Below are positions 16,368 through 31,303 of a stretch of 33,536 nt of DNA, in pieces. The stretch comes from Desulfobacteraceae bacterium (GTDB lineage: Bacteria; Desulfobacterota; Desulfobacteria; Desulfobacterales; Desulfosalsimonadaceae): NCBI GenBank assembly GCA_014237465.1, contig JABZFM010000041.1:1-33536 (forward strand), in the 5' to 3' direction. Under the pieces are notes generated by a model that did not search any database, was not told the origin of the DNA, and worked only from the letters and a program-made list of their open reading frames with translations. How positions within the stretch are numbered: position 1 is the stretch's first letter; every line of letters starts with the position of its first letter. The translations under genes were made by a program, and so were the position numbers.

Positions 16368-16408
16368 TGTAAAGGCATTTACAGTTGTCAATGTGTAAAG
16401 CATTTACA
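16368..16408. promoter_or_regulatory. Tandem palindromic activator sites (UAS)
   Basis: TGTAAAGGCATTTACA (16368-16383) and TGTAAAGCATTTACA (16394-16408) are near-identical palindromes, each followed by GTTGT, with centres about 25-26 bp apart. They lie about 70-110 bp upstream of the -24/-12 site, the usual place for activator hexamer binding, and immediately ahead of the activator 3 gene. Confidence 0.85.
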
Positions 16409-16476: not shown

Positions 16477-16492
16477 TGGCATGATACTTGCT
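16477..16492 (+). promoter_or_regulatory. Sigma-54 promoter of the Hdr/FrhB/MetV cluster
   Basis: TGGCATGATACTTGCT fits TGGCAC-N5-TTGCT with one mismatch and the exact GG-N10-GC spacing. The predicted start of transcription is near 16502. Paired palindromes upstream and an adjacent sigma-54 activator gene support it. Confidence 0.88.
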
Positions 16493-16550
16493 CATACTAT
16501 TATAAGATTTTAATTAAAACTGGTTTACCGTGATATCCACTTTGAAGCAA

Positions 16551-16802
16551 ATGAAAAATCAATCAAATCATATAATCGATCTTAGCGGTTTTATGGCCCC
16601 TGTTGCAGCGCTTCAGGCCGTCCGGAAATTCCGGGAGATGAAGACGGGCGAATGCCTTGAAATGGTAAATTGCAACCATGAAACAATGCGAATGATATTA
16701 CGGTTTTTCCCGAAATCTGCTTATCAATTGCTGGATGAAGAAAAGATGCCCGTACAATTTTTTCTGTATCGGGTAATGATGCGAAAAATTGATGATATAT
16801 AA
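16551..16802 (+). CDS. TusA/SirA-like protein lacking the catalytic cysteine
   Basis: 83 aa from ATG 16551 (GTG 16530 is an in-frame alternative; neither has a strong ribosome site). HIIDLSGFMAPVAALQAVRK aligns with the TusA start, where the sulfur-carrying CPxP motif would stand; here it reads FMAPVAAL, without Cys. GECLEMVNCNHETMRMILRF follows the family pattern. TusA proteins carry persulfide sulfur and accompany Hdr-like sulfur systems. Without the Cys this one cannot be a classic sulfur carrier and may be a structural or regulatory subunit. It is the first gene of the sigma-54 operon, 51 nt before the HdrA fusion. Confidence 0.6.
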   Translation: MKNQSNHIIDLSGFMAPVAALQAVRKFREMKTGECLEMVNCNHETMRMILRFFPKSAYQLLDEEKMPVQFFLYRVMMRKIDDI

Positions 16803-16853
16803 AATTCACCCCTGATTGAATATTTTAAATTAATGAAATTCAGGAGAAAATAG

Positions 16854-19853
16854 ATGTCCAAAGCAAGTACCGTCCTGATTTACGGGACCAATTTGAGCGG
16901 CTACAGAATCGCCTATGCCCTTGGCAAGCTGGGATACAAGACCGTCATGCTGAACCGGGGGGCTTATGTGGATGAAGTCAGAAACCAGGTGCTGTCCCAG
17001 CTCCCATTTGACCTTTGCTGGGCCTGCGCCTATGCGCCCCAGCGGTTGTTCGTAGGCCTTGGCGCCATGCAGATCATGTATAATGCAGAGCTCCTTGAGC
17101 TTAACGGTGAAGCCGGAAATTTTACGGCAAAAATCCGGAAACGGGATGCGTTTGTTAATAACTATATCTGCACGGAATGTGAAAAATGTGTGGACGCATG
17201 CCCGGTAACGGTTGAAAAGGACGGCAAAAAACAAAAAGCGGTGCAGATCGTGCCCAAAATGTTCTGGGAAAATATTTATTTGATTGATGAAGAAAACTGC
17301 ACCCAATGCGGGGAATGTGAAACCGCCTGTCCCACCGGGGCCTTAAAAATGAACCCGCCGGTTGAGGAGATCGAAATTGAAGCAGGCGCGGTCATCCTTG
17401 CTCCTGAATTTGACGAGCCCGGCAAAGCAGAACTGGCGACCTTTGGATGGGGGATAATGCCGAATGTGGTCAAAAGCTCGGATATTGCCCGGGCATCCCT
17501 TGCCACCAATTTTACCGGTGATTCATTCAAACGTCCGTCCGATGGAAAGCTTCCCCAAAGTATCGCCATCGTCGTGACACCGCATTTCAATGAAAAGGGC
17601 ATTGAGTATGAAAATTGTAATGCCAGCGCCCAGGCGGTATATCGCGCCAACAAAATAAAGGAGATGCATCCCGACATTGATGTGTCCCTTTTTTGCCGGG
17701 ATTACAAATGTTACGGCAAGGGTCATTGCCGCATGTACGAACGGGCAAAAGACAGTGGGGTCCGTGTCATCAGGACGGAAAAACTGGCCTTAAGTGCGGC
17801 GGATGGCGAAAGAAACAGGATATCCTTTTCAACATTTTCAACAAAGGAACTAACAGACAAAAAAACGGTACATATGACCATTTTAATCACCGGCCAGCGA
17901 CCGCCCACCACCATGAAACGGCTTTCCGAAATTTGCGGCGTTCCGGCGGAATCTCATGGATTCTGTGATATTTTGCCATTCACCTGCGCCAAAACCGAGG
18001 TGAACGGTATTTTTGCAGTGGGCGAATTCACGTCTCCAAAGGGAAACCCGGAGACCATCTGGGAAGGATACGGTCCGTTAAGGGAAATTACTTCCAGGCT
18101 GGGCGAAAAGAACGTTGAAAAACCCCAACCCCCCGCGCTGCGGAACGTCTCATATGAAAAGACACGGACAGGAATTTTTATCTGTAGTTGTTTCGGGGCT
18201 TTTTCCGATAAAATAGACCTTGAATCACTTGTCAACCGGGTAAAAGGCTTTTCCCATGTGGCACACGCGGAGATCATCAACGGTTGTTGCACGCCGTTTT
18301 CCATCCAGGAAACCGCGGCAAAAATAAAAGAATCAGGCGTCAACCGGGTGGTGTTGGCCGTCTGCACCCCGACCCAGAAAATGATGAAATTCAGAAAAAC
18401 CGTTATGATGGCCGGATTAAATCCGCTGCTTTCCGAACTTCTGCGCCTAAGGGAGGATGTGATTCAGGTCCATACGGACCCGGCCGGAATGGAAGATAAA
18501 GCGGCCGCGATGATATATGCCGCGGCAGCCAAGCTGACAACCGCGCAGGCCATGCCGACGCTAATGGATCATATGGGGTCAACGGTCCTGGTCATCGGTG
18601 GCGGTGCGTCCGGGCTTGAGGCGGCCAGATATCTGGGAGCCGCCGGCTATAACGTTCATGTGGTGGAAAAGACAGACCATGTGGGCGGCATGGCGGATTT
18701 TTTGTCGATAGATCTTGAGGGCCATGAAATTCAAAAATATATGGCGCAACTCGTGGATGACATTGAAAAAGATGTGCATATCACGGTTTATACGGATACC
18801 CTGGTGAGCGATGTTACCGGGTATGCCGGTAATTTTCATGTCCGACTTGAAACAAAGGGTACGGAAACGGTTGCGGTTGATCCCGCGATTGTCATTCTTG
18901 CCACCGGGGCGAAGGAGGCAAAACCGGATTTATACGATTACGGTAAAGATGAGCGGGTCATGACGCAGTTGGAGTTTGAGCAAAAACTGGCAAACAAACA
19001 AATCACCGGCGGGCATGTGGTCATGATCCAGTGCGTTGGCTCCAGAAACCCGGAAAAGCCCTACTGCTCAAGGGTTTGCTGCTCTGCGGCCTTAAAGAAT
19101 GCGTTGATTTTGAGGGAAAAGGGAATTGATGTCACCATTCTTTATCGTGATATGAATACATACGGGTTCAAGGATGACTATTTCCAGGCGGCAATGAAAA
19201 AAGGGGTGTCCTTTTTACGGTTTGATGAAAATCAATATCCAAAATTAGAAGCCTCTGATGCGACCCTTAAAATAAAGATCAACGACATTTCAGACGGGAA
19301 AGACAAGGAGATTATCGCGGATTATCTGGTTTTGAGTACCGGCATGGACCCGAACCGGGAAAACAATGAGGCGTTTTCGGCATTATTTGATTTAAATCTG
19401 GATGATGATGGTTTTTTTGATGTGGAGTCATGCGCATGCCCTTATGAAGACGCTTCCAAAAGGATTATGAAACCGTTTGAGCTTTCATCCAACGGTGTTT
19501 TTGTGGTGGGAACGGCTCACTCGCCCCGGTCTTTTATGGAATCGGTAATGATGGCACGCCAGGCTGCCGGAAAGGCCATGGTGATTCTGCCGGCCGCCAA
19601 AATGCCGGCGCCCAATGCCATGTATGTCTCTGAAGTGGATGAAAGCAAATGTACCGGGTGCGGCCTATGTGTGGATGTCTGTCCTTATCATGCGCGGGAG
19701 ATTGATCCCATACGGAAGGTGGCCAAGGTCCGTCCGTTTCTGTGTGATTCATGCGGGGCGTGTGTGGTTGCATGCCCGAGCAGCGCGGCATTTTTAAGGG
19801 ATCAGCGGGAAGATCAGTTAATTAGAAGTATCGATGGATTGCTGGCGGTATAA
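16854..19853 (+). CDS. Double HdrA-type flavin/FeS fusion protein, 999 aa
   Basis: It consists of two HdrA-like halves. The N-terminal half (about 1-430) has a Rossmann start with GTNLSG in place of GGGxSG, and two ferredoxin motifs, CTECEKCVDACP (about 105) and CTQCGECETACP (about 149). The C-terminal half (about 440-999) is a fuller HdrA: CSCFGAF at 443, a good FAD motif VIGGGASGLEAARYLGAAGY (about 580), CSRVCC, and terminal ferredoxin motifs CTGCGLCVDVCP (about 932) and CDSCGACVVACP (about 963). HdrA is the bifurcating flavin subunit of heterodisulfide reductases. MvhD follows at once, a known HdrA partner. The ribosome site is CAGGAG. The degenerate first flavin site suggests an electron-wiring role for that half. 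Confidence 0.9.
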   Translation: MSKASTVLIYGTNLSGYRIAYALGKLGYKTVMLNRGAYVDEVRNQVLSQLPFDLCWACAYAPQRLFVGLGAMQIMYNAELLELNGEAGNFTAKIRKRDAFVNNYICTECEKCVDACPVTVEKDGKKQKAVQIVPKMFWENIYLIDEENCTQCGECETACPTGALKMNPPVEEIEIEAGAVILAPEFDEPGKAELATFGWGIMPNVVKSSDIARASLATNFTGDSFKRPSDGKLPQSIAIVVTPHFNEKGIEYENCNASAQAVYRANKIKEMHPDIDVSLFCRDYKCYGKGHCRMYERAKDSGVRVIRTEKLALSAADGERNRISFSTFSTKELTDKKTVHMTILITGQRPPTTMKRLSEICGVPAESHGFCDILPFTCAKTEVNGIFAVGEFTSPKGNPETIWEGYGPLREITSRLGEKNVEKPQPPALRNVSYEKTRTGIFICSCFGAFSDKIDLESLVNRVKGFSHVAHAEIINGCCTPFSIQETAAKIKESGVNRVVLAVCTPTQKMMKFRKTVMMAGLNPLLSELLRLREDVIQVHTDPAGMEDKAAAMIYAAAAKLTTAQAMPTLMDHMGSTVLVIGGGASGLEAARYLGAAGYNVHVVEKTDHVGGMADFLSIDLEGHEIQKYMAQLVDDIEKDVHITVYTDTLVSDVTGYAGNFHVRLETKGTETVAVDPAIVILATGAKEAKPDLYDYGKDERVMTQLEFEQKLANKQITGGHVVMIQCVGSRNPEKPYCSRVCCSAALKNALILREKGIDVTILYRDMNTYGFKDDYFQAAMKKGVSFLRFDENQYPKLEASDATLKIKINDISDGKDKEIIADYLVLSTGMDPNRENNEAFSALFDLNLDDDGFFDVESCACPYEDASKRIMKPFELSSNGVFVVGTAHSPRSFMESVMMARQAAGKAMVILPAAKMPAPNAMYVSEVDESKCTGCGLCVDVCPYHAREIDPIRKVAKVRPFLCDSCGACVVACPSSAAFLRDQREDQLIRSIDGLLAV

Positions 19854-19892
19854 TAATTACGAATTGCGGGTATGACTAACGGGAGAAAAAAT

Positions 19893-20324
19893 ATGGATGA
19901 AAAAAAAGAATTTACACCGTCAATTATTTACGGGCTGTGCAGTTGGTGCGGTACGGGCGGCTCTGAGACAGCCGGAGCCATGCATCTTCAGTATGCAGAT
20001 AATATCCGACCGTTTCGGGTTCCCTGCACGGGGGCCATTGATCCGGTTTATATTTTAAGGGCTTTGATTGAAGGCGCGGACGGTTTTGCCGTTAGCGGTT
20101 GCCATCCCGGGGATTGTCATTTTGATTCAGGTAATTATCGCGCGCGAAGGCGAATAGCGGTTTTAAAGAGTCTTTTAGATACGTTCGGGCTTGATTCGGA
20201 AAGGGTCTTGCTCCGGTGGGTCGGCCACGGCGAGGGAAAACGGTTTGCAGATACGGTCAATGAATTTAATGACTATATAAAAGAAATGAAAAAAAATCCT
20301 TTGGCTGAAAGAAGGGACACATAA
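19893..20324 (+). CDS. mvhD: MvhD/FrhD-type iron-sulfur subunit (copy 1)
   Basis: 143 aa. MvhD proteins carry a [2Fe-2S] cluster and pass electrons between HdrA and a dehydrogenase or hydrogenase. Conserved Cys are seen in LCSWCGTGG (start), VPCTGAIDPVY and VSGCHPGDCHFDSGNYRARR. The ATG at 19893 is chosen for the GGGAG 8 nt upstream, over an earlier in-frame start at 19872. It lies 39 nt after the HdrA fusion. Compared with copy 2 downstream it is divergent at the first motif (GTGGSETAG against TFTAADLAG), suggesting a different partner. Confidence 0.93.
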   Translation: MDEKKEFTPSIIYGLCSWCGTGGSETAGAMHLQYADNIRPFRVPCTGAIDPVYILRALIEGADGFAVSGCHPGDCHFDSGNYRARRRIAVLKSLLDTFGLDSERVLLRWVGHGEGKRFADTVNEFNDYIKEMKKNPLAERRDT

Positions 20325-20440
20325 GGCGGCCGGGCCGCAGAAACTGGAAACTGTAATGATTGAATTGTCGCTTCGAAAATGCAAAAAAAAATTATTTTTA
20401 TTGCACTGAGTGAGTTACGGTCTGTCAAAACATGGGCAAC

Positions 20441-20563
20441 GGCTTCGTAAAAAGCTCCGTATGCAAGGCGCGCGAACCGGGAAAGGCGAGGGCGTACTTT
20501 ATGTACGTTGAGCCCTTTCCCGGTGAAGCGCAACGCCGCAGACGGAGCTTTTAACGAAGTCGG
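20441..20563. repeat. Palindromic repeat element R1
   Basis: The ends GGCTTCGTAAAAAGCTCCGT and ACGGAGCTTTTAACGAAGTC are inverted copies. The inside is a second long hairpin (CCGGGAAAGG...CCCTTTCCCGG) around a TAC-TTTA-GTA-type loop. It is one of five elements in this cluster, with the internal GCAAGGCGCGC core in the opposite orientation to R3 and R4. It lies between mvhD1 and the first FrhB-like gene, so the mRNA would fold into a large stem here. Confidence 0.9.
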
Positions 20564-20583
20564 CAAATAAGGATGAGGTGAAT

Positions 20584-21717
20584 ATGATTAAGGGAATATG
20601 GGTTGAAGGTCCGGTGAAAAAAGGGGTTTTGGACTTTTTAAACGGACTTTTGGCTGAAAAAAAAATTAAAGCGGTTTTGATGCCTGCTAAAAATAAGGGC
20701 GGTGATTCCTATGCATGGTTTTTAATGGGAAAAGACCGCCTGCTCGAGTCGGCTGACCCGGTTCCGCCGGTGATGACAACCCAGGGGGCGAATGTTGTCA
20801 GCTACCTGACCAAAAAAGGCCCGGTTTGGGAAAAAACCGCGGTTTTGTTACGTCCCTGTGAATACCGGGCGGTTATTGAACTGGCCAAAATAAAGCAGGT
20901 GGATCTGACCAATCTGGTACTTATCAGTTTTGATTGTCCCGGCGCATACCCGCTGGAAAAATATGTGAATGGGGACCCAGAAGAACTGGATGAATCATTT
21001 GAGGTCTGCCTGGGGGGAGTGGTTGAACTTGACGGGCCAAGGAACGTCTGCGCCATTTGTCATCGATTTACCGGCACGGGCGCGGATATTGAAATCGGTC
21101 TTATGGGCGGAGAAGGAAAGGGTTTCTGGCTTGTTCCCGGAAGTAAACAGGGAGAAGAACTCCTTGACGGGGCCGTGGGCAGCGAATCGGATAATATAGA
21201 CGTAAGGGAAAAGGCAATCAGCGACCGCACCATTGCACGGGAAACAAAGAGAAACAACACGCTCGATTCTTTTCAGGAAACCGTCATGGGGCCTGAAAAC
21301 TTACTCAATACGCTTTCTGCCTGCATTAATTGTCATAACTGTAGCCGGGTATGCCCCATATGCTTCTGCCGGGAGTGCTATTTTGATTCAAAAGCGTTAA
21401 GCAGCGAGGCGGACAATATGCTCCAGCGGGCGCAACGGAAAAGCGGCCTCAGGCTTCCGCCGGATCTTCTTCTTTTTCACCTGGGACGGATGTCCCATAT
21501 GAGCGTGTCCTGTGTGTCATGCGGGGCATGCGAAGACGCCTGCCCGGCCAATGTACCGGTGTCCATGCTCTTTGCCCTGGCAGGCAGAAATACTCAGGCG
21601 GTTTTTGACTATGAACCGGGACGCCGTCTGGATGAAGCGATCCCGCATACGGTTTTCAAGTTTGAGGAATTAAAGGATTTTGAGACCCCTTATATAAAAG
21701 AGTATTCAAAAGTGTAA
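20584..21717 (+). CDS. FrhB/FdhB-like flavoprotein with FeS C-terminus (copy 1)
   Basis: 377 aa from ATG 20584, preceded by GGATGAGGTG. The N-terminal two thirds match the FrhB/FdhB (coenzyme F420 or NAD(P) reducing) family, with LRPCEYRAVIELAKIKQVDL and FDCPGAYPLEKY. An unusual cysteine-dense motif, CINCHNCSRVCPICFCRECY (about residue 247), and CVSCGACEDACP (about 311) form the FeS part. Relatives feed electrons from formate, F420H2 or NAD(P)H into HdrA-MvhD modules. The electron donor here is unknown; no hydrogenase or formate dehydrogenase catalytic subunit is in the window. It is about 40% similar by eye to the next gene. Confidence 0.85.
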   Translation: MIKGIWVEGPVKKGVLDFLNGLLAEKKIKAVLMPAKNKGGDSYAWFLMGKDRLLESADPVPPVMTTQGANVVSYLTKKGPVWEKTAVLLRPCEYRAVIELAKIKQVDLTNLVLISFDCPGAYPLEKYVNGDPEELDESFEVCLGGVVELDGPRNVCAICHRFTGTGADIEIGLMGGEGKGFWLVPGSKQGEELLDGAVGSESDNIDVREKAISDRTIARETKRNNTLDSFQETVMGPENLLNTLSACINCHNCSRVCPICFCRECYFDSKALSSEADNMLQRAQRKSGLRLPPDLLLFHLGRMSHMSVSCVSCGACEDACPANVPVSMLFALAGRNTQAVFDYEPGRRLDEAIPHTVFKFEELKDFETPYIKEYSKV

Positions 21718-21767
21718 ATACGTGCGGATATGGATATAAAAGGGTCTGCCGATAAAAGGAGCAAGAG

Positions 21768-22859
21768 ATGGAAACAATGATTGACAGCCGGATGATGATG
21801 ACGGATTTTCTCACGGCACTTTTTGATAAACTGGATGTGGCCGGTGTGGCAGTCATGTCTAAACTTCCGTCCGGAGAGAAAACAGCATTCACACTCTTTA
21901 CGGGTAAAGACGATATCAAAGAATGCGTGCCCTTTTTCCCGGCAATGCCGGCAAACGCAGCCCGGGCGGTTTCAAAATTTACCAGACAAGCCGTCCCGTC
22001 AAAAACAGTGGCGGTATTTTTACGCCCCTGCGAATTGCGAGCTTTCACCGAACTGATAAAAATCAAACAGGCGTCTTTTGATAACCTTTTGATACTCAGT
22101 TATGACTGTTCGGGTGTATTTCCTTTTCAGGAGATCAATCTGTCGGATGAAACAAAATTAAACGCATACAGGGATGCGGTTTCCACCGGGAAAAACTGCG
22201 AGGGGATTCGGCCGGTCTGTGCCGCGTGTACTCGGTTTACGCCTCAGGGCGAAGACATTGCCATATCATTTGTCGGGCGAAGCACAGACCAGCCTCTGGT
22301 GTTTTCCTTTCCTTCTGAAAAAGGACTGGCAGCAGCAGAACAACTGGGCTTAGACGTTTCAAACACAGTTGCGGCGTCTTCCGCGGTAGAATCCCTGGCA
22401 CAGGAAAGACGCAGTGCGGAAGAAGAACTGACCGCTGAAGTGGACGCTTCGCTTTCCGATACACAAGGGCTGGTTAATGTGTTTGACCGGTGTGTTTCCT
22501 GTCATGCCTGCAGCTATGTATGCCCCATATGCTATTGCAAGAATTGCTATTTTGACTCCCAGACCTTTGAGTACTTTCCGGAAAGCTATTTTATCCGAAT
22601 GCAGGCTAAAGGTGCGTTGCGGTTTCCCGTAGACAGGGTCTTGTTCCATCTTGGCAGACTGAGTCACATGGGGGTGTCCTGTGTTGCCTGCGGAATGTGC
22701 GAGGATGTATGCCCGGTGAATATCCCGGTATCACAAATTTTTAAAACAGCAGGGAGCAAAGCCCAGGCCCTGTTTGATTATATTCCGGGAGAAAATTATG
22801 ATGAGCCGCTGCCGCTGCTGGCGTATGCGGAACAAGAGCTTGAAGAATTCGAGGACTAA
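21768..22859 (+). CDS. FrhB/FdhB-like flavoprotein with FeS C-terminus (copy 2)
   Basis: 363 aa, ribosome site AAAGGAGC. It has the same architecture as copy 1: FLRPCELRAFTELIKIKQAS and YDCSGVFPFQE in the flavin domain, then CVSCHACSYVCPICYCKNCY (about 243) and CVACGMCEDVCP (about 306). The conserved end is QALFDYIPGENYDEPLPLL. Two adjacent diverged paralogues suggest a heterodimer, or two input modules each paired with one MvhD. Confidence 0.85.
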   Translation: METMIDSRMMMTDFLTALFDKLDVAGVAVMSKLPSGEKTAFTLFTGKDDIKECVPFFPAMPANAARAVSKFTRQAVPSKTVAVFLRPCELRAFTELIKIKQASFDNLLILSYDCSGVFPFQEINLSDETKLNAYRDAVSTGKNCEGIRPVCAACTRFTPQGEDIAISFVGRSTDQPLVFSFPSEKGLAAAEQLGLDVSNTVAASSAVESLAQERRSAEEELTAEVDASLSDTQGLVNVFDRCVSCHACSYVCPICYCKNCYFDSQTFEYFPESYFIRMQAKGALRFPVDRVLFHLGRLSHMGVSCVACGMCEDVCPVNIPVSQIFKTAGSKAQALFDYIPGENYDEPLPLLAYAEQELEEFED

Positions 22860-22862
22860 TAG

Positions 22863-22910
22863 GAATTACGAATTAGGAATTAGGAATTAGGAATTAAGAA
22901 TTAAGAATTT
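22863..22910 (+). repeat. Heptamer tandem repeat GAATTA(G/A/C)
   Basis: Seven consecutive 7-bp units (one GAATTAC, three GAATTAG, two GAATTAA, one partial) fill almost the whole gap between the second FrhB-like gene and mvhD2. A slippage-prone simple repeat inside an operon may vary in length between strains. Confidence 0.95.
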
Positions 22911-22926
22911 CAGATGGGGAAAAGTT

Positions 22927-23355
22927 ATGGCGAACAATGAAACAGATATAAAAATAGTGGCTTTTTTGTGCAACTGGTGCACGTTTACCGCAGCCGATCT
23001 GGCCGGCACCAGCCGGCTCAAGTATGCGCCGAACATTAGAATTGTAAAGGTGATGTGTTCCAGCAGGATAGAGCCGGTCTTTATTTTAAAGGTGCTGCTT
23101 GACGGTGCCGACGGTGTATTTATCGGCGGTTGCGCGCCCGGAGACTGTCATTACTCAAAGGGAAATTTCTACGCCCGGCGAAAGGTCGCTCTGGCCAAAA
23201 CACTGGCCAAAAGCGCGGGGCTTGATTCCGAAAGGATCAGGCTTTCCTGGATACCGGCATCGGAGGGCCCGAGATTTGCACATGTGGTCAATGAATTTAC
23301 AGCGCATATCAAAGAACTGGGAGATAATCCTGCCAGACGAGAGGTGTATATATGA
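22927..23355 (+). CDS. mvhD: MvhD/FrhD-type iron-sulfur subunit (copy 2)
   Basis: 142 aa. Canonical MvhD motifs are LCNWCTFTAADLAGTSRLKY, VMCSSRIEPVFILKVLLDGA and IGGCAPGDCHYSKGNFYARR. It links HdrA to an electron-input module. Its stop overlaps the start of hdrC by 4 nt, and hdrC overlaps hdrB in the same way, so mvhD2-hdrC-hdrB are tightly coupled and probably form one complex with HdrA. The ribosome site is GGGGAAAAG. Confidence 0.95.
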   Translation: MANNETDIKIVAFLCNWCTFTAADLAGTSRLKYAPNIRIVKVMCSSRIEPVFILKVLLDGADGVFIGGCAPGDCHYSKGNFYARRKVALAKTLAKSAGLDSERIRLSWIPASEGPRFAHVVNEFTAHIKELGDNPARREVYI

Positions 23356-23897
23356 TGACTGATTCGGTTTTACGGGACAGATTTTTTAAAAAATATCATG
23401 GGCAGGAAATAGAAAACTGCATCCAGTGCGGAATGTGCAGTGGGAGTTGCCCGTTGGCGCCGCATATGGATTTTGGTCCCCGACAGTTGTTTGCCATGGC
23501 CAGGGAAGGGGATATGAACGAAGTTTTACATGCCAATACCATTTGGCTGTGTGTCTCCTGTTATAACTGCGTTGTCAAGTGCCCTCGGGGGATTTCTATT
23601 ACCGATCATATGTATTCCTTGAAAAAGATGGCAACAGAAGTGGGGATAAAGCCGCCCAAAATGCTTCATCTGTATCGGTCATTTAATGCGCCGGTAGAAA
23701 AAAATGGCCGGCTGACGGATGTTATGGCCATGGCGGGATACGGTCTGAGACACCCCGGAGCTGCGATGGCGAATGTGCCGCTGGGCTTAAAGATGCTGTC
23801 CCGGAAGCGCCTGGAACTCAAGCCGGCGTCGGTTAAAAATATTGACGGCTTTCAACGGGTCCTTAAAAAGGCAAAAGAACTGGAGAGGGTATCATGA
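23352..23897 (+). CDS. hdrC: Heterodisulfide reductase subunit C
   Basis: 181 aa, soluble. It carries two [4Fe-4S] motifs, CIQCGMCSGSCP (about residues 21-32) and CVSCYNCVVKCPRGI (about 61-75), in the usual HdrC arrangement. It transfers electrons from HdrA to HdrB. It overlaps mvhD2 upstream (ATGA) and hdrB downstream (ATGA). Confidence 0.96.
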   Translation: MMTDSVLRDRFFKKYHGQEIENCIQCGMCSGSCPLAPHMDFGPRQLFAMAREGDMNEVLHANTIWLCVSCYNCVVKCPRGISITDHMYSLKKMATEVGIKPPKMLHLYRSFNAPVEKNGRLTDVMAMAGYGLRHPGAAMANVPLGLKMLSRKRLELKPASVKNIDGFQRVLKKAKELERVS

Positions 23898-24736
23898 AAT
23901 ACGGTTTTTTCCCAGGATGCAGCTACAAGGGAGCTGCCGGATATAAAGAATCGACCGAGGCCGTTTCGCGGCTACTTGGCATTGAATTGGTGGAAATACA
24001 GGACTGGAACTGCTGCGGGGCGACAAGCTACTGGAGTACCCAAAGCATTGAGGCATATGTTTTGCCGGCCCGGATTATGGCATTGGCTGAAAAGCAGGGG
24101 CTTTCTGAAATCGTTAATGTGTGTAACGCATGTTACTCCACCCTCCGAAAGGCTCAGGAAAAGCTGGCTCAGGACAACGACTTGAACGAGAAAGTGAATC
24201 TGGCGCTTGCCGAAGAAGGGCTTAAATACACGGGGAATTTGAATATCAGACATTTGATGGAGGTCATTGTAAACGATCTGAATGCTGATGATATAAAGAA
24301 ACATATTAAAAAGGACCTTTCCGGCTTTGTTGTGGCCCCGTACTACGGATGTCAGTTAAACCGGCCATGGGCGGACATTGATGATGCCCATTATCCGGTG
24401 TTGATGGATCGGCTCATTGAAATGGTCGGCGCAAAACCGCTAAAAAATTATTCCGCCAAAACCGAGTGCTGCGGCGCGGCACACATGGTTGCCCACAAGG
24501 ATTTGTGTATGCCGTTAAATAACCGGATCGTAAAAGACGCCGTCAGCAAGAGCGCACAAACGATTTGCACACTGTGTCCCCTATGTCAGTTCAATGTCGA
24601 TGCCTCCCAGTACAAATCCGGACTTCCCATGGTGCCGGTCATCTTTTTTACCCAAATGATGGGACTTGCGTTCGGGCTTTCTGAAAAAGACTTGAAGTTA
24701 CAGAAATTATTAACGCCGTTTAAATTGGCTGTTTAA
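23894..24736 (+). CDS. hdrB: Heterodisulfide reductase subunit B
   Basis: 280 aa with two complete CCG domains. The first has PGCSYKG (C9), WNCCGATSY (C40-C41) and CNACYS (C77, C80). The second has YYGCQLNRP, TECCGAAHM and CTLCPLCQFN. These bind the noncubane [4Fe-4S] clusters that cleave disulfides in HdrB. In bacteria without CoM/CoB the substrate is unknown; in MetVF-HdrABC-MvhD clusters of acetogens the complex works with methylene-tetrahydrofolate reductase. All ligand cysteines are present, so the site should be active. Confidence 0.96.
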   Translation: MKYGFFPGCSYKGAAGYKESTEAVSRLLGIELVEIQDWNCCGATSYWSTQSIEAYVLPARIMALAEKQGLSEIVNVCNACYSTLRKAQEKLAQDNDLNEKVNLALAEEGLKYTGNLNIRHLMEVIVNDLNADDIKKHIKKDLSGFVVAPYYGCQLNRPWADIDDAHYPVLMDRLIEMVGAKPLKNYSAKTECCGAAHMVAHKDLCMPLNNRIVKDAVSKSAQTICTLCPLCQFNVDASQYKSGLPMVPVIFFTQMMGLAFGLSEKDLKLQKLLTPFKLAV

Positions 24737-24743
24737 ATTTGCT

Positions 24744-24893
24744 GGCTTCGTAAAAAGTCCAAATTCTTTGTTGCGCTGCATTTCTCGTCACTGCGGAGTA
24801 GGCTGACTACGCCTCATTTCTCGAAATTTGCGCGCCTCGAATTTGGAGCTTTTTTCTTTGCTATCGAAATCTGATTTTTTACGATTTTATCAA
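24744..24893. repeat. Palindromic repeat element R2
   Basis: It starts GGCTTCGTAAAAAGTCC just after the hdrB stop and ends ...CTGATTTTTTACGATTTTATCAA. It contains TTGCGCTGCATTTCTCGTC and TTTGCGCGCCTCGAA, the internal core shared with R3 and R4. It separates hdrB from hdrA. Confidence 0.88.
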
Positions 24894-24915
24894 ATTCGTC
24901 TGGAGAATTTTTACT

Positions 24916-26925
24916 ATGAGAGAATCCAAACCGAAAATCGGGGTTTATGTGTGTCATTGCGGGACCAATATATCCGGCAAGGTGGATGTGGAGGCGGTAT
25001 CGGAATATGCGTCCGCTCTTCCCCATGTGGCGATAGCAAAAAATTTTAAGTTCATGTGTTCAAGCCCCGGTCAGCAACTGGTGATTGATGATATCCGGAA
25101 AAATGATTTAAACCGGGTAGTGGTTGCTTCCTGTTCCCCGAGAATGCATGAAAAGACGTTTAGAACCGCATGCCAGGCGGCCGGAATTAATCCGTATTAT
25201 TTTCAAATGGCCTGTATCCGGGAGCATGATTCATGGGTGACTGAAGATCCGGAAGCGGCCACCCAAAAGGCAAAGGATCTGGTCAGAGGCTCTGTGGCCA
25301 GAGTTGCTCATCATCAGCAACTGACCTCACGGGTGGTGGATATCAATCCCAATGTGCTGGTCATCGGGGGAGGGATTTCCGGAATGCAGGCGGCACTGGA
25401 TATTGCCGACGGCGGTAAGAAGGTTTACCTGGTGGAAAGGGACCCGTCCATCGGCGGGAATATGTCCAAGTTTGACAAGACATTTCCTACCCTGGATTGC
25501 GCGGCCTGCATTAGCACGCCGAAGCTGGTGGCCGTGGGCCAGCATGAAAATATTGAAATGATGACCTACAGCGAAGTGGCCGATGTTTCCGGATTTGTAG
25601 GGAATTTTACCGTCAAGATCCGGAAAAAACCAAGGTATGTGGATGCGGATAAATGCACCGGGTGCGGCGTCTGTACGGAAAAGTGCCCGTCAAAGGTTCT
25701 TTCGGAATTTGATCATGACCTGACTAAAAGAAAGGCCATATTTACGCCTTTTCCGCAGTCCGTCCCCAATACCCCGGTGATTGACACGGAAAATTGTCTT
25801 TTTTTTAAGAAAGGCAAGTGCCGGGCGTGTGAGAAATTTTGTGAAGCCGGTGCCATTGATTTTGAACAAAAAGAAGAGATTGTCGAAATAAACGTCGGAT
25901 CTATTATCATTGCCACCGGTTTCGAAACCTTTGATCCCACCCCATTGACCCAGTACGGGTTTGGACGGTATCCTGAAGTCTATACCAGTATTCAGTTCGA
26001 ACGGATTAACAATGCCACCGGGCCCACTTCCGGTAAAATTGTTACCAAAGACGGTAAAAAACCCGAATCGGTCGCCATTATCCATTGCGTGGGGTCCAGG
26101 GACCAGAATTATATGAAATACTGTTCCCGGGTCTGCTGCATGTATTCCATGAAGTTTGCGCACCTGGTCCGGGAAAAAACCGGGGCTGAAGTCTATGAAT
26201 TTTATATTGATATTCGTTCTCCTGGGAAAGGGTATGAAGAGTTTTACAACCGGCTCCAGGAGGAAGGGACCCATTTTATCCGGGGCAAGGTTTCCCAGAT
26301 TACCGATATGGTCGATTCTCCAGAAGATGAGGGGAAACTGATGGTGGTGGCGGAAGACACCCTTGCGCGCAAGGTGCGGAGAATCCCCGTGGACATGGTG
26401 GTGTTGAGCGTGGGCCTAAAACCGGCTGCGGGAATCGAAGATATTGCCCGAATGGTGGGGATTTCCGTTGATTCAGACGGATGGATCAACGAACTTCATC
26501 CCAAGCTCGGCCCGCTGGCAACCCCATCAGACGGTATTTTCATTGCCGGCTGCTGCCAGGGTCCCAAAGATATTCCCGATTCCGTGGCCCAGGGCCAGGG
26601 CGCGGCAGGCGCGGCACTTTCCCTGATCAGTCGCGGGAAACTTGAGATTGAAGCAGCGGTATCGGCCATTGACCCGGAAAGATGTATGGGATGCCGCCAG
26701 TGCGAAGAAGTCTGTGTTTACGGGGCCATCTCGTACCACCCGGCACTGAATATTTGCGAGGTCAACGAAGCGATCTGCAAGGGCTGCGGCAATTGCGCGG
26801 CCACATGCCCAAACAAGGCAATTGATTTGAAGCATTTTAATAATGATGAACTCCTGGCCGAGATGGAAGGACTGATGTTCGGGCCGGCTGATTTCCATCA
26901 CGGTACGGACGAGCAGGCGGCTTAA
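24916..26925 (+). CDS. hdrA: Heterodisulfide reductase subunit A
   Basis: 669 aa, the usual single HdrA length. N-terminal VCHCGTNISG (C13, C15), FMCSSPGQ and SCSPRMHEKTF come first. The FAD motif is VIGGGISGMQAALDIADGGK (about 149-168), followed by FDKTFPTLDCAACISTPK. Ferredoxin motifs are CTGCGVCTEKCP (about 247) and CRACEKFCEAGAI, then CSRVCCMYS. The C-terminal ferredoxins are CMGCRQCEEVC (about 590) and CKGCGNCAATCP (about 621). This is the bifurcating flavin subunit that would join HdrBC and MvhD. It is the second HdrA in the cluster. Confidence 0.97.
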   Translation: MRESKPKIGVYVCHCGTNISGKVDVEAVSEYASALPHVAIAKNFKFMCSSPGQQLVIDDIRKNDLNRVVVASCSPRMHEKTFRTACQAAGINPYYFQMACIREHDSWVTEDPEAATQKAKDLVRGSVARVAHHQQLTSRVVDINPNVLVIGGGISGMQAALDIADGGKKVYLVERDPSIGGNMSKFDKTFPTLDCAACISTPKLVAVGQHENIEMMTYSEVADVSGFVGNFTVKIRKKPRYVDADKCTGCGVCTEKCPSKVLSEFDHDLTKRKAIFTPFPQSVPNTPVIDTENCLFFKKGKCRACEKFCEAGAIDFEQKEEIVEINVGSIIIATGFETFDPTPLTQYGFGRYPEVYTSIQFERINNATGPTSGKIVTKDGKKPESVAIIHCVGSRDQNYMKYCSRVCCMYSMKFAHLVREKTGAEVYEFYIDIRSPGKGYEEFYNRLQEEGTHFIRGKVSQITDMVDSPEDEGKLMVVAEDTLARKVRRIPVDMVVLSVGLKPAAGIEDIARMVGISVDSDGWINELHPKLGPLATPSDGIFIAGCCQGPKDIPDSVAQGQGAAGAALSLISRGKLEIEAAVSAIDPERCMGCRQCEEVCVYGAISYHPALNICEVNEAICKGCGNCAATCPNKAIDLKHFNNDELLAEMEGLMFGPADFHHGTDEQAA

Positions 26926-27113
26926 ATAGATTTATGCAACTTGGAAAATAGAAATCTTTATTTTTTCGAGTTGTTGCTATTTGTAAAAAGGTGATTATAC
27001 TAAAAATGATTGTAATCTGCATTGAGGGTCATGTAGCAGAATGAGTAATCGGCGGCAGGTCTGGTTTTCTTGATATTTGGGATCTGCCCTTCGGTATTTT
27101 GGAGATCAGAAAA
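26926..27113. other. Intergenic gap before the cytochrome gene
   Basis: This 188-bp gap is AT-rich at its left end. No clear sigma-54 or sigma-70 promoter and no strong terminator were seen, so whether a new transcript begins here is open. Confidence 0.5.
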
Positions 27114-27566
27114 GTGAAAAATATTCCAGTCAAAATAAATTTTTGTTTTATGATGGTATGCGTTTTTCTCGGGGGCATGGCGGCATTCTCTTTTATTCAC
27201 ACTTGCCCGGCAAATACGGCCGCTTGCGCTAAACATGAGCATAAGCAACGGTTACCGGTGGCATTTCCGCATGACATGCATATGGCGAATTTTGATTGTG
27301 AGGCCTGCCATCATAAATATGATGATAAAATGAATAATGTAATAGATACCATGGAACTCTATAGTGGCAATCCGGACATCATGTGTGCTTCCTGCCACAC
27401 ATCGGAAACCACGCTTCATACCCGGCGGGCGTATCACCGTCAATGCGTGGGATGTCACAATGAGCAGATCATAATGAACCAGGCTTCAGCGCCGACCATG
27501 TGTAATGAATGTCATCGTCCGGCAGCTATGAACCCAACGGAAGATGAAATGATTATCAGAGGATAA
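27114..27566 (+). CDS. Periplasmic tetraheme c-type cytochrome (cytochrome c3/c7 type)
   Basis: 150 aa from GTG 27114, chosen for GGAGATCAG just upstream. An N-terminal hydrophobic signal (residues about 8-28) is followed by FPHDMHM, a typical class III heme-ligand segment. Four heme-binding motifs follow: CEACH (62), CASCH (91), CVGCH (111) and CNECH (130). Spacing and size fit the cytochrome c3-like periplasmic electron carriers of sulfate reducers. It lies 1 nt upstream of metV and near a cytochrome b gene, so it may connect the membrane module to periplasmic hydrogen or formate metabolism. Confidence 0.93.
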   Translation: MKNIPVKINFCFMMVCVFLGGMAAFSFIHTCPANTAACAKHEHKQRLPVAFPHDMHMANFDCEACHHKYDDKMNNVIDTMELYSGNPDIMCASCHTSETTLHTRRAYHRQCVGCHNEQIIMNQASAPTMCNECHRPAAMNPTEDEMIIRG

Positions 27567-27567
27567 A

Positions 27568-28248
27568 ATGATTAAAGCAAAACCAAAACCAGTTGAAGAA
27601 ATTTTAAATTATATTGCGCCATATCAGGATATTTTGATTGTCGGCTGCGGCGGGTGTGTTTCCGTCTGCCTTGCCGGTGGCCAGAAAGAAGTCACTATTC
27701 TGCAAACAGAACTGGAGCTGGCGCGGGATAAAACAAAATCAACCGGTCAGTTTTCCGGGTACACAGTTGAACGGCAGTGTAATGAACAATATCTTGGGTC
27801 GCTGGATGATATGGTGGAAACAGCGGATTGCGTCCTGTCCATGGCCTGCGGCGCCGGCGTGCAGCTCCTTGCTGAAAAATATCCTGAAAAACCGGTATTT
27901 CCGGCAGTAAACACCATTGCCATTGGAATCGATCTGGACATTGGTCTGTATGAGGAAAGATGCCGGGCCTGCGGTGAATGCGTACTGGCATATACGGCTG
28001 GGGTCTGCCCGGTTACACGATGCGCCAAGGGACTGTTTAACGGGCCTTGTGGCGGGACCAATGGGGAGAAGTGCGAAATCAGCGCAGACATTAACTGTGC
28101 TTGGCATGAAATATATACCCGCCTGAAAGCCCAGGACCGACTGGCGGATATTCTGAAAATCCAGCCGCCCATGCAGTGGCAGAATCAGGTCAAGCGCACC
28201 ATCGTTCAAAAAGGATATGAGCAGAGATATTATCAGGAATCAATATGA
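27568..28248 (+). CDS. metV: MetV-like protein (methylenetetrahydrofolate reductase C-terminal / zinc-binding family)
   Basis: 226 aa. VGCGGCVSVCLAGGQKE, MACGAGVQLLAEKYP, CRACGECVLAYTAGVCPVTR and CAKGLFNGPCGGTNGEKCE are hallmarks of MetV. In Moorella-type acetogens MetV forms the methylene-THF reductase core with MetF and is physically tied to HdrABC-MvhD. Here MetV sits beside hdrCBA, but no metF is present in the window. The family contains zinc and [4Fe-4S] sites, and the Cys needed are present. The stop TGA lies in ATATGAACATG, the same sequence that starts the next gene 177 bp further on. Confidence 0.9.
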   Translation: MIKAKPKPVEEILNYIAPYQDILIVGCGGCVSVCLAGGQKEVTILQTELELARDKTKSTGQFSGYTVERQCNEQYLGSLDDMVETADCVLSMACGAGVQLLAEKYPEKPVFPAVNTIAIGIDLDIGLYEERCRACGECVLAYTAGVCPVTRCAKGLFNGPCGGTNGEKCEISADINCAWHEIYTRLKAQDRLADILKIQPPMQWQNQVKRTIVQKGYEQRYYQESI

Positions 28249-28255
28249 ACATGAC

Positions 28256-28419
28256 GGCTTTGTAAAAAGTCCAACTTCTGCGTTGCGCTGCATCCTTCGT
28301 TTCTTCAAAGTACGAAGAGTACGTATCATCACTCAGGATTTGCGCGCCTTGCCAATTTTACGAGATTGGTGAACTTTTATATTTTGCCGTCGGAATTAGA
28401 TTTTTTACGAGTGTATCAA
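28256..28419. repeat. Palindromic repeat element R3
   Basis: GGCTTTGTAAAAAGTCCAAC at the left and ...GATTTTTTACGAGTGTATCAA at the right, with the core TGCGTTGCGCTGCATCCTTC and CTCAGGATTTGCGCGCCTTG. The flanks carry a 20-bp direct repeat, AATATGAACATGACGGCTTT, at 28242-28261 and 28419-28438. Confidence 0.9.
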
Positions 28420-28421
28420 AT

Positions 28422-29138
28422 ATGAACATGACGGCTTTTTTGACAATTCCATCCATTGCGGTTTTATTGGATTTTATCCGGGGGCCCCTGGTATGGCTCT
28501 CCTTTATTATATTTGGCCTGGGCCTGATTGTTCAAACCTTTAGATTATTGAACCTGACCCAGAAAAAAGAAACGCGACGCCTTGCGCCGGGCAAAGAGTT
28601 TGTACCACAAGCCACCTTATCAAAGCGGGAATGCTTTTTCAGACGCCTGGCGTTTCTAAAAATAACCATCATAGGGCAAAACGCCTGCATGGTGATGTTC
28701 AGTTTTCTTTTTCATGTGTGTCTGGTGATAACGCCCATATTTCTTTTGGGGCATAATGTTTTGCTGGACACATCGTTTGGATTCAGTTTTATCTCTTTTT
28801 CCGAAAAAACCTCGGATACCCTGACCCTGATTGTTCTGATGAGCGGGCTTGTGTTTCTTTTGCGAAGGCTTTTGCTTCCCCGGGTCCGGATTCTTACAAC
28901 GGTATATGATTTTATATTGCTTTTTGTCGCCATCGCCCCCTTTTTGACCGGTTATTTGGCCCATCATCACATATTTAATTATAATATAATGATCATCTTA
29001 CATATACTTTCCGGAGAACTGATGCTGGTGATGATACCGTTTTCCAAATTTTTTCATATGGTTTTTTTCTTTATCAGCCGGTTCATGATTATCAGTGAAC
29101 ACAGCATGGGGGCACCAAAACGGTCATGGCAATTTTGA
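28422..29138 (+). CDS. Membrane cytochrome b, NarI/TmcC/HdrE-like
   Basis: 238 aa with about five transmembrane helices (about 10-37, 85-110, 125-148, 160-180, 185-215). His residues within the helices, in SFLFHVCLVITP, LTGYLAHHH and ILHILSGELMLVMIPFSKFF, resemble the heme b ligands and quinone-site region of the nitrate reductase gamma/TmcC/DsrM family. It probably exchanges electrons between menaquinone and the short HdrC-like protein encoded next. The start codon region is duplicated on the other side of repeat R3, so the gene may originally have overlapped metV by ATGA. Confidence 0.82.
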   Translation: MNMTAFLTIPSIAVLLDFIRGPLVWLSFIIFGLGLIVQTFRLLNLTQKKETRRLAPGKEFVPQATLSKRECFFRRLAFLKITIIGQNACMVMFSFLFHVCLVITPIFLLGHNVLLDTSFGFSFISFSEKTSDTLTLIVLMSGLVFLLRRLLLPRVRILTTVYDFILLFVAIAPFLTGYLAHHHIFNYNIMIILHILSGELMLVMIPFSKFFHMVFFFISRFMIISEHSMGAPKRSWQF

Positions 29139-29329
29139 TGGCGTCGTTAAAAGTCCAATATTTATTTTAGCTTTTGGGTTGCGCTGCATTCTTCGTCGCT
29201 TTGTAGGGTGCATTTTATGCACCAATAATGACGAATCATTACTCAGGATTTGCGCGCCTTGCCAATTTTATGAGAATGGTGAACTTTTATACTTCGCCGT
29301 TGGAATCTGACTTTTTACAGGATTATCAA
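29137..29329. repeat. Palindromic repeat element R4
   Basis: It begins GATGGCGTCGTTAAAAGTCC within the stop codon of the cytochrome b gene and ends ...CTGACTTTTTACAGGATTATCAA. It shares the core TTGCGCTGCATTCTTCGTCG and TCAGGATTTGCGCGCCTTGC with R3, plus TGGTGAACTTTTATA, which R3 also has. Confidence 0.9.
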
Positions 29330-29379
29330 TTTAAATGCATCGCCGGTTTTTAATCAGAAGCTATCTTGTGGAGCAGTAA

Positions 29380-29754
29380 ATGGGGAAAACACCAGAAATT
29401 AATACAGATTCAATCAAATCAATTTTAAAACAAAACAGAAAACAGATTAAACTCGGCCTGGCCATGTGCGCCCATTGCAGCCTGTGCGCGGAAAGCTGTT
29501 TTTTATTTGTGTCAAAAGACAATGATCCGGAATATATGCCTTCCTATAAATTCATCAACTCCATTGGCAGGTTATATAAAAAAAAGGGAAAGGTCAGTAA
29601 ACAGGCCCTTGAAGAAATGCGGGACCTTGTTTTTGAAAAATGCGTGCTGTGCACCCGGTGTTATTGTCCATTTGGAATTGATATTCCTTCCCTGATTACC
29701 CTTGGCCGGAGCGTGTGTCGAACCCATGGGTTGTTTCGGGAGTATGACAGGTGA
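29380..29754 (+). CDS. Short HdrC-like FeS protein
   Basis: 124 aa, soluble. FeS motifs are CAHCSLCAESC (about residues 28-38) and CVLCTRCYCPFGIDIPSLI (about 88-106), as in HdrC and the N-terminal part of TmcB/DsrK, but without the CCG domains of HdrD-type proteins. It pairs with the cytochrome b just upstream. Together they could form a membrane-bound electron entry that docks to HdrB or MetV. The second cluster motif is compressed, with Cys at 88, 91, 94 and 96, so it may bind an atypical cluster. Confidence 0.83.
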   Translation: MGKTPEINTDSIKSILKQNRKQIKLGLAMCAHCSLCAESCFLFVSKDNDPEYMPSYKFINSIGRLYKKKGKVSKQALEEMRDLVFEKCVLCTRCYCPFGIDIPSLITLGRSVCRTHGLFREYDR

Positions 29755-29950: not shown

Positions 29951-31303
29951 ATGAAAAAAGGAGAAAAACTGATTATTGTCGGATGCAGTGGCTCAGGCGG
30001 GCCGGCTGCAATGATGTCAAGAAAATTAATGCCGGAAATTGATATCACCGTTATTCGCAAGGAAGAATTTTTTATAGTCAGGTGAGCGCTTCCTCATGTA
30101 GTGGCCGGTCTGGCTGCCAGTGAGTCGATTATTGTTCCCGACAAAATGCTTGAAGGTGCGGGCATTAATGTTGTCAGGGAGGAAGTGACCAAGGTGGACA
30201 CAGCAAATAAAAGTGTTTTTGTGTCCGGCGGTGAAGAATTTAAATATGACAAGCTGTATCTTGCCACAGGATCCAGTCCGTTTATTCCGCCGATCGAAGG
30301 TAAAGAGCTTGATGGGGTCATGACATTGCGCGGGCTTGCCGATGCAGAGAAAATAAAATCATATATTGCCGACCGAAATCCCCGAAATATCATATTTATC
30401 GGGGCGGGTTTTATCAGCATGGAAATTGCGTCGCTGTTGGCGGAAAACATGCCGGATAAATTCAACATCTCCGTGGTTGAACTCATGGACCGGTCGCTTC
30501 CCCTGATGCTGGACAAAGATATGGCGGATCCAGTCGGCGTATACCTTGAAGAAAAGGGCCTCAATATTCTGACCAATGAAAAAGTCGAAAAACTGACCGG
30601 CCAGGATGGGAAAATTACCGGGATTGAACTGTCATCCGGGAAAAAACTTGACGCGGATATGGTTTTTATGAACGTGGGCGTTCGGCCGAACATTAGACTT
30701 GCCAGTGATATCGGGCTGGAGATGGGGCAATTCGGCATCAAGGTGAACAAGTTCCAGGAAACATCCGACCCGGATATTCTGGCGGGCGGGGACTGTGTTG
30801 AAAAAATCAATTTTATTACAAAAAAGCCGACCCCCGGACAGCTTCGGGGTCCTGCGGTAATGCAGGGGCGTCTTGCGGGTAAGCGGCTGGCCGGTTATGA
30901 TATCGAATTCCCGGGTGTTGTGGATGCCGGCGGCTGTAAAATGTTTGACATGACAATTACCGCCACCGGTTTTACCGAAGAAAGCGCTGCCAAAGAAGGC
31001 ATTGAAACCGTATGCGCCGTGGTTGACTCCAGGAGTAAGCACGGGATGATTCCGGGCATGAAACCGTGGAAGATCAAACTGGTGTTTGACAAAAAAACAC
31101 AGAAACTCATCGGGGGGCAGATTGTCAGTCATGCGATTGCGCCGGCAAGAGAAATCGATGCCGTCACCGCTTTTATCCTGGGTGGAAAAACAATCCCGGA
31201 ACTAACAACCTTTACATCCGCCTGTAATCCGGATATCTCTTCAGAGCCGAGTGCGGAACCGATTACTGTTGCAGCGGAGCAGGCCCTGCAAAAATTAAAG
31301 TAA
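29951..31303 (+). CDS. Selenocysteine-containing CoA-disulfide reductase/NADH oxidase-like flavoprotein
   Basis: 450 aa when the in-frame TGA at 30083-30085 is read as Sec (residue 45). The N-terminus MKKGEKLIIVGCSGSGGPAA is an FAD-binding start, followed by RKEEFFIVR-U-ALPHVVAG. The paralogue at 31867 has SYSACGMPY at the same place, so Sec replaces the catalytic Cys of the CoADR/Nox family. A second Rossmann motif, FIGAGFISMEIASLLA, binds NAD(P)H. LAGGDC and the dimerisation domain are intact to the natural stop. Family reactions include reduction of CoA disulfide, polysulfide or O2; substrate unknown. Ribosome site AAAGGAGATAAC. Host sel genes are outside the window. Confidence 0.92.
30083..30085 (+). 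other. UGA recoded as selenocysteine
   Basis: This is the only in-frame stop between ATG 29951 and the TAA at 31301. Strong family similarity runs on both sides in one frame, and the position equals the active-site Cys of the homologue downstream. Confidence 0.9.
30101..30117 (+). other. bSECIS-like hairpin
   Basis: GTGGCC (30101-30106) and GGCTGC (30112-30117) form a 6-bp stem with two G-U pairs around a GGTCT loop, starting 15 nt after the UGA. The loop matches the GGUC apex of the E. coli fdhF SECIS, known to be read by SelB. Confidence 0.8.

Follow-up and report, generated by a model that had tools for sequence, protein, structure and literature searches.

In this study we have analysed a stretch of 33,536 nucleotides (the window), which is one contig, JABZFM010000041.1, of the 5.09 Mb, 99.96% complete genome of a Desulfobacteraceae bacterium (GCA_014237465.1), and in which twelve same-strand open reading frames (ORFs), g1-g12, span positions 16854-29754. 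The cluster is best read as two units lying side by side and not as one supercluster: unit A (g1-g8, preceded by a small ORF, g0) combines HdrA, HdrB, HdrC, MvhD and FdhB-like proteins, and unit B (g9-g12) joins MetV to relatives of the Tmc and Hmc proteins. We consider it probable that g9-g12 encode the electron-transfer part of a membrane-linked MetVF methylene-tetrahydrofolate (methylene-THF) reductase, for which MetF would be supplied in trans in this organism, and that unit A is a separate system. The original prediction, whose composition of twelve Hdr, FrhB, MvhD, MetV and cytochrome genes is confirmed by our family scans, had read them as a single supercluster encoding a candidate bifurcating system, a view that does not agree with the occurrence of each unit without the other elsewhere. 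Family scores below the curated NCBIfam or Pfam cut-offs are marked as such. Published work is cited here and below from the portions of text available.

A module of MetV and Tmc-like proteins

All genes of the cluster lie on the plus strand. The first gene of unit B, g9 (27099-27566), encodes a TmcA-like tetraheme cytochrome c3 with four CxxCH motifs, matching NF045722 at 7.1e-15 (55 bits against a cut-off of 114), and is followed by g10 (27568-28248), which encodes a MetV (PF12225, 1.8e-34). The product of g11 (28422-29138) is a putatively heme-bearing membrane cytochrome b of the TmcC/HmcE kind; its matches to TmcC (NF045723, 7.7e-53, 179 bits against a cut-off of 240) and to a second model of TmcC/HmcE type (1.2e-47) are both below cut-off, and no Pfam family is found in it at 0.001. 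Finally, g12 (29380-29754, 124 residues) covers positions 37-152 of the 457-residue HmcF model (NF045711, 2.8e-27) and also matches TmcB (2.5e-25), corresponding to a short TmcB/HmcF N-terminus with two [4Fe-4S] clusters and no CCG domain, an identity that, after these profile matches, replaces its earlier assignment as a short HdrC.

The same combination recurs among the relatives of the organism. In a first search with g11 of 195 relatives, twenty loci were taken by descending TmcC rank, the window, G019 and G103 being excluded, and in all twenty a g10-type MetV is no further than about 1.1 kb from TmcC, in one locus as a fragment at the edge of the contig, and a short TmcB is present, in one case truncated by the end of the contig; G103, fetched later, has MetV near TmcC as well. 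Counted by eye, at least 41 of the 195 relatives, plus G174, have MetV within about 1.6 kb of a TmcC-like gene. A second set of twenty loci, selected for co-occurrence of MetV and TmcC, contains MetV, TmcC and short TmcB in every case and a cytochrome c in 18. Within the taxonomic order the genes are arranged as cytochrome-MetV-TmcC-short TmcB-(MetF) or as (MetF)-TmcC-short TmcB-cytochrome-MetV, with few exceptions (e.g., L123 and L125), a third arrangement recurs outside it, and the cytochrome gene is detected in 33 of 42 order-level module loci. In six loci from the phylum (L145, L147-L150 and L157) the small cytochrome c3 is replaced by an ORF of 560-628 residues after MetF, with 16 or 17 CxxCH motifs, a heme count as in the NCBIfam name of HmcA; on the contig of L154, also outside the order, no cytochrome was found.

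The 59 module ORFs that match the short-TmcB model measure 124-215 residues from stop to stop, too short to hold the CCG domains, which the module TmcBs have lost. The genome retains, at separate loci, full-length HmcF/TmcB-like proteins of 462 and 443 residues, from which the module differs in this respect. The cofactor ligand residues of the module proteins are well kept: four histidines of TmcC are invariant (43 of 43 aligned), as are eight cysteines of the short TmcB (42 of 42) and the four CxxCH motifs plus four further histidines of the module cytochrome (33 of 33), and 13 of the 14 cysteines of MetV are present in 47-49 of the 49 sequences compared, some of which are Hdr-linked, and the remaining one, C88, in 37 of 49. 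Comparison of the window with G019 gives ratios of nonsynonymous to synonymous substitution rates (dN/dS) of 0.058 for MetV and 0.079 for g12, which are under strong purifying selection, and of 0.23 for TmcC and 0.28 for the cytochrome.

The association of the module with MetF was followed beyond the order in a phylum-wide g11 search of 395 genomes, from which 18 of the 26 best-ranked out-of-order matches and two lower-ranked ones were fetched. MetF and MetV were detected with profile hidden Markov models seeded on L055, L056 and L057 and on g10, L049 and L050, respectively, so that MetFs unlike the seeds could escape detection. Of the 59 loci with Tmc-adjacent MetV, 34 have MetF at a distance of 2.5 kb or less from TmcC; these are 16 of the 41 order-level loci and all 18 of those outside the order. 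These out-of-order loci, all 18 of which contain MetF, MetV, TmcC and short TmcB, are the strongest evidence for the MetF link; the two lower-ranked loci carry TmcB-like proteins of 445-452 residues and neither MetV nor MetF. As regards the genome under study, none of its six PF02219 matches lies on the window contig, and of its four MetVs only the window copy has no MetF alongside. Another copy, on contig C69, is Hdr-linked (HdrA, MvhD, MetV and MetF; HdrB and HdrC were not detected at this locus). In a MetF tree of 60 rows, with several weak or open forks, the Hdr-cluster MetFs of the family nest among the module MetFs, and the MetF on contig C3 of this genome is therefore a reasonable partner in trans. 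In a midpoint-rooted tree of 78 MetVs the 59 Tmc-adjacent sequences fall into one group, and the 18 Hdr-adjacent sequences and a single outlier lie outside it.

The module appears to have been noticed before under another name. We infer that genome G045 is that of Desulfococcus multivorans, and its module, at about 2.377-2.379 Mb, with a 127-residue short TmcB and no full-length TmcB in 16 kb, would then coincide with the 'tmcA2B2C2 at 2.38 Mbp' published for that species (PMC5109826). According to the same source, most constituents of the two Tmc clusters of D. multivorans, TmcA1 and TmcB2 excepted, were found in membrane-enriched fractions across 17 substrates, and a word search of its main text returned no MetF, MetV, methylene or folate.

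Several observations weigh against the role proposed here for the module. MetF is not adjacent in 25 of the 41 order-level loci, including the window and G019; in eight of these, where one flank of the module is shorter than 1 kb, it could sit off the contig, and the other 17, the window among them, have more flanking sequence. Of the 42 order-level loci, six are without a cytochrome c gene despite having flanking sequence, and three more are without it at contig edges. The Tmc/Hdr split in the MetV tree has a weak support of 83/47, the structural model of MetV is of low confidence and has no good match to a solved structure, and profile searches found no PDB relative of the protein. The second set of module loci, chosen for co-occurrence, is not independent evidence. 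In addition, TmcB2 of D. multivorans is given in the accessible text of PMC5109826 as an undetected protein of 50 kDa, to be compared with the 127-residue product at the G045 locus.

Proposed electron path and direction, and the question of one system or two

In the model that we favour, a MetF acting in trans, probably the contig C3 copy, would oxidise methyl-THF, and the electrons would run through MetV and then the pair of [4Fe-4S] clusters in g12, the short TmcB, to the hemes b of TmcC (g11), and from there to menaquinone or to the periplasmic cytochrome c3 (g9). Full TmcB carries CCG catalytic domains; as g12 is without them, the DsrC-type active site of Tmc would in effect be replaced by MetVF. 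Menaquinone synthesis is implied by the presence in the genome of MqnC and MqnE, both over their cut-offs, which belong to the futalosine route. Methylene-THF chemistry linked to the membrane, a possibility raised by the original prediction, is retained in this model, with the membrane link residing in a separate MetV-Tmc module instead of being an output of the Hdr complex.

Methyl-THF oxidation is the most likely direction of unit B, which could also reverse. Methyl-THF is oxidised at about -200 mV, a potential that the text available to us describes as too positive for NAD+ to accept the electrons directly (PMC6895022), and this bears on the opposite reading, in which periplasmic H2 or formate would feed cytochrome c3, TmcC, the short TmcB and MetVF in turn and supply methyl-THF for CO2 fixation. 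Such a reductive role seems to us unlikely: the potential of the couple is not far from those of cytochromes, but NAD+ cannot easily take the oxidation step, and D. multivorans, which would bear the module if it is indeed G045, reportedly has no periplasmic hydrogenase or formate dehydrogenase genes (PMC5109826).

The relation between the two units can be read from their occurrence in other genomes. In all four other loci that run past g8 (L041/L193, L040/L047, L043 and L191), unit A is found without g9-g12, and g9-g12 are found without a unit A orthologue in the stretches L089-L128, some of which are only 4-9 kb long; in two of them, L108 and L115, a different Hdr-MetVF locus, with a g1-like protein of 30-31% identity, lies some kilobases away. 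An orthologue of g4 with at least 50% identity, taken as the marker of unit A, occurs in six of the 389 genomes searched within the order, and no other match listed exceeds 39%. Of these six genomes, only G000, G019 and G074 also belong to the 41 relatives in which MetV lies near TmcC. G174 also has both units, and in G074 and G174 they lie on different contigs. In the window itself, g9 lies between hdrA and metV, and there is no metF.

These data led us to reject as the leading view, and to regard as quite improbable, a single supercomplex of all twelve products that would bifurcate electrons between ferredoxin, a disulfide and the membrane. In its favour, the gene order is not unique to this contig, the same twelve-gene order and strand being found in a second genus, G019, with a g8-g9 gap of 173 bp in the window and of roughly 210-225 bp in G019; no terminator-like site was found at 26800-27200, and g12 is a protein with two [4Fe-4S] clusters, of the HdrC-like kind. 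Against it stand not only the separate occurrence of the units and the confinement of the g8-g9 linkage to two genera, but also the completeness of unit A, which has its own HdrB and HdrC, and a sigma-70-like match between g8 and g9 (26974-27001), of a quality expected 0.9 times by chance per scanned 401 bases. Hardly credible, finally, is a module MetV repurposed as a non-folate iron-sulfur (Fe-S) adaptor wiring cytochrome c3 to some other cytoplasmic partner, which would suit the window and the 24 other order-level loci without adjacent MetF and the separate branch of the module MetVs, but not the 34 of 59 loci (18 of 18 outside the order) where MetF is adjacent, nor the cysteines kept in common with Hdr-linked MetVs.

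Unit A, its promoter and neighbouring features

Unit A shows the features of HdrABC-type complexes, namely an HdrA flavin adenine dinucleotide (FAD) domain, an HdrB with two CCG sites, an HdrC and MvhD. Family scans identify g1 (16854-19853) as a double HdrA of 999 residues with complementary halves: aligned with g8, its N-terminal half has the cysteine region and an inserted ferredoxin and is without the N-terminal domain, and its C-terminal half has the N-terminal domain and a terminal ferredoxin and is without the cysteine region. The single HdrA, g8 (24916-26925, 669 residues), has the full domain set by alignment (NF040770, 6.3e-248, below cut-off). Two MvhDs are encoded by g2 (19872-20324; PF02662, 1.6e-41) and g5 (22927-23355; PF02662, 2.7e-50), an HdrC by g6 (23352-23897; TIGR03290, 2.3e-22, below cut-off) and an HdrB by g7 (23894-24736), with two stretches of PF02754 and two CCG-type cysteine sets, one found by motif and the other read off the cysteine positions. 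The NCBIfam scores of HdrA, HdrB and HdrC fall short of curated cut-offs that are meant for archaeal enzymes.

The two remaining proteins of unit A, g3 (20578-21717), with a C-terminal 4Fe-4S dicluster, and g4 (21768-22859), are FdhB/FrhB-like. Pfam and NCBIfam alone give mixed Fe-S matches for them (AsrA, ShyB and a weak FrhB_FdhB_C); the FdhB identity comes from PDB sequence matches of g3 only, the best at 6.4e-27, g4 aligning to g3 at 35% identity, and a low-confidence model of g3 (mean predicted local distance difference test, pLDDT, 64) matches 7bkb_E and 8rvu_E. An F420-dependent FdhB is disfavoured for g3 and g4: no CofH over cut-off was found in the genome, where CofH was the F420 gene searched for, the two long CofH-like matches are MqnC and MqnE, each over its own cut-off, and F420 thus seems to be absent from the organism. 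By homology, unit A would be a bifurcating or confurcating complex, soluble and switched by sigma-54, in which the FdhB-like flavo-Fe-S proteins may pass electrons through MvhD to the flavins of HdrA; ferredoxin and the disulfide-type CCG site of HdrBC may be the partners with which these flavins exchange electrons.

When the genome collection was scanned with g1, six loci of 56-89% identity were returned; the named loci that bear its close relatives include Desulfobacterales, Desulfonema, Desulfococcus and Desulfobacteraceae metagenome-assembled genomes. G019, L041/L193 and L191 keep g1-g8 in unbroken order, L190 holds g2-g8 up to the contig end, and L043 has the arrangement g1-g2-g3-g4-g8-g5 with an HdrC-HdrB-like fusion after it. 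In L040/G014 (L040 10035-15196) the two halves of a split hdrA are separated by NuoE, NuoF and a NuoG-HdrA chimera, possibly as a result of recombination or misassembly. A flavoprotein of 480-486 residues related to coenzyme A (CoA)-disulfide reductase follows unit A in L041/L193, L043 and G014, and g12 in G019; none was seen within 6.7 kb of g8 in L191.

Sigma-54 control, as originally predicted, is supported by the presence at g1 of both a -24/-12 promoter, predicted at 16477-16492 on the plus strand (TGGCATGATACTTGCT, an exact match to the degenerate TGGCAYRN4TTGCW), and a divergent PAS-AAA-Fis activator gene (14965-16353, minus strand; PF00158 at 4.3e-71, PAS and HTH_8). The pattern alone is not rare, with four matches at one mismatch or fewer across the window against 1.64 expected, a count reached by nine of 100 shuffles. 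In the 501 bases upstream of g1, however, the score of 11 out of 12 is reached by only two of 2000 letter shuffles. The best upstream scores in relatives are 11 in L039, 10 in L040, 9 in L042 and 9 in L191, reached by 1, 30, 109 and 79 of 2000 shuffles, respectively, so that the matches in L042 and L191 are weak; the divergent activator lies beside g1 in all four. Paired dyads read by eye at 16368-16408 (TGTAAAGGCATTTACA and TGTAAAGCATTTACA) are candidate activator sites and may possibly bind it. Resembling TGTAAA/TTTACA dyads lie upstream of g1 in L039 and L042, are degraded in L040 and were not seen in L191. A second exact match to the sigma-54 consensus is found at 941-956, upstream of aprB, the aprBA genes lying near the left end of the window.

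Between the promoter and g1 lies g0 (16551-16802), a TusA-like small ORF absent from the original list of genes. Its PF01206 match (2.3e-6, 27.8 bits against a cut-off of 28.6) is accompanied by matches of 6.4e-7 and 7.1e-6 in two relatives, and it is kept in L039 and L040 and was not seen in L042 or L191; the cysteine of the TusA CP motif is absent. Across g1-g12, dN/dS against G019 ranges from 0.036 to 0.28 (with a near-saturated dS for g6), and the cluster is therefore no chance array of ORFs. Several of its wide intergenic gaps are repeat insertions: repeats resembling miniature inverted-repeat transposable elements, with GGCTTCGTAAAAAGTCC-type ends, fill those at about 20440-20562, 24735-24896, 28247-28421 and 29131-29331, and for the copy at 24735-24896, 40 genome matches were scored out of 269 first-look candidates. 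Rfam at gathering scores gave nothing in the window.

Downstream of g12, two CoA-disulfide-reductase-like proteins are encoded. The flavoprotein gene at 29951-31303 contains a TGA codon in frame (30083-30085), which G010 and G005 share and which lies presumably near the position of the redox cysteine and probably encodes selenocysteine; a fold resembling a selenocysteine insertion sequence was not significant for this gene (z-score -0.67). The second protein (31813-33207; TIGR03385, 8.4e-121, below cut-off) is 85% identical in G019. In G019, G004 and G010 a conserved ORF of 119-131 residues follows the short TmcB (L046 11712-12071), which was not found in the window; by eye, a similar ORF lies near g8 in L191. 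On the other side of the cluster, 9611-10168 encodes what is left of a hybrid cluster protein, a C-terminal part corresponding to residues 396-544 of a 544-residue relative; the remainder was not found in the window.

Significance and comparison with known systems

Taken further, the data suggest a dedicated respiratory methyl-THF dehydrogenase made of membrane-bound MetVF and a catalytically stripped Tmc, widespread in Desulfobacterota, which would feed quinone or cytochrome c3 and would here be under the same sigma-54 switch as a confurcating Hdr-FdhB complex, a proposal that we put forward tentatively and rate at somewhat less than an even chance. If true, it would provide a missing link in complete oxidisers, passing methyl-THF electrons straight into the quinone/cytochrome c3 pool, and would let the cell choose between the membrane, on the one hand, and ferredoxin and disulfide carriers, on the other, as the destination of these electrons. 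A function would also be found for the 'second Tmc complex', apparently already present in the membrane proteome of D. multivorans (PMC5109826, available text).

A membrane link of this kind has been proposed before. In Thermacetogenium, according to the accessible text of PMC6895022, membranes showed the highest methyl-THF oxidation with benzyl viologen, for which a link through HdrABC to quinone was proposed, and the part seen of a review treats the coupling of MetFV to cytochromes or quinones as a hypothesis for acetogens (PMC8578096). A conserved module coupling MetV and MetF to cytochromes b and c would make the proposed link testable in complete oxidisers. In the literature searched, which excluded most subscription journals, no paper linked Tmc with MetV or MetF, and the available portions of studies on Archaeoglobus (PMC3949148) and Acididesulfobacillus (PMC8982180) contain nothing on Tmc or MetV.

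The closest known relatives of unit B are TmcABCD and HmcABCDEF, the transmembrane complexes found in sulfate reducers, with which it shares the TmcA-like cytochrome c3, the TmcC/HmcE-like cytochrome b and the N-terminal Fe-S domain of TmcB/HmcF. In contrast to them, it is without the CCG catalytic part of TmcB/HmcF and has MetV, and often MetF, in its place. MetV and MetF are shared with the MetVF-HdrABC-MvhD enzyme of Moorella thermoacetica, as far as its available description goes, and the C69 copy of this genome is likewise Hdr-linked; unlike the Moorella type, however, unit B has no HdrA, HdrB, HdrC or MvhD of its own, their place being taken by a cytochrome c and a membrane cytochrome b. 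A MetVF core with an accessory redox subunit is also found, from the text available, in the MetVF-RnfC2 of Acetobacterium woodii, an enzyme that is soluble and NADH-linked.

In the case of unit A, HdrABC and MvhD are shared with the Fdh-Hdr of M. hungatei (7bkb) and the Elp-Hdr of M. marburgensis (8rvu), the FdhB-type chains of which match g3. Unit A differs from these methanogen systems in having two FdhB-like genes and two HdrAs and in lacking FdhA within the cluster, and the genome yielded no CofH over cut-off. The complementary loss of domains in the two halves of g1 is like that of the fused HdrAs described in the accessible part of PMC9012536, in the opposite order. FdhB beside HdrA has already been reported in Desulfobacterium autotrophicum HRM2, and, in the portion of that report available, Hdr loci V-VIII combine HdrA or HdrL with FdhB, mostly with MvhD, as in unit A (PMC2702500). 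Compared with them by gene content, unit A is distinguished by two FdhB-like genes, a double and a single HdrA, HdrBC and a TusA-like ORF.

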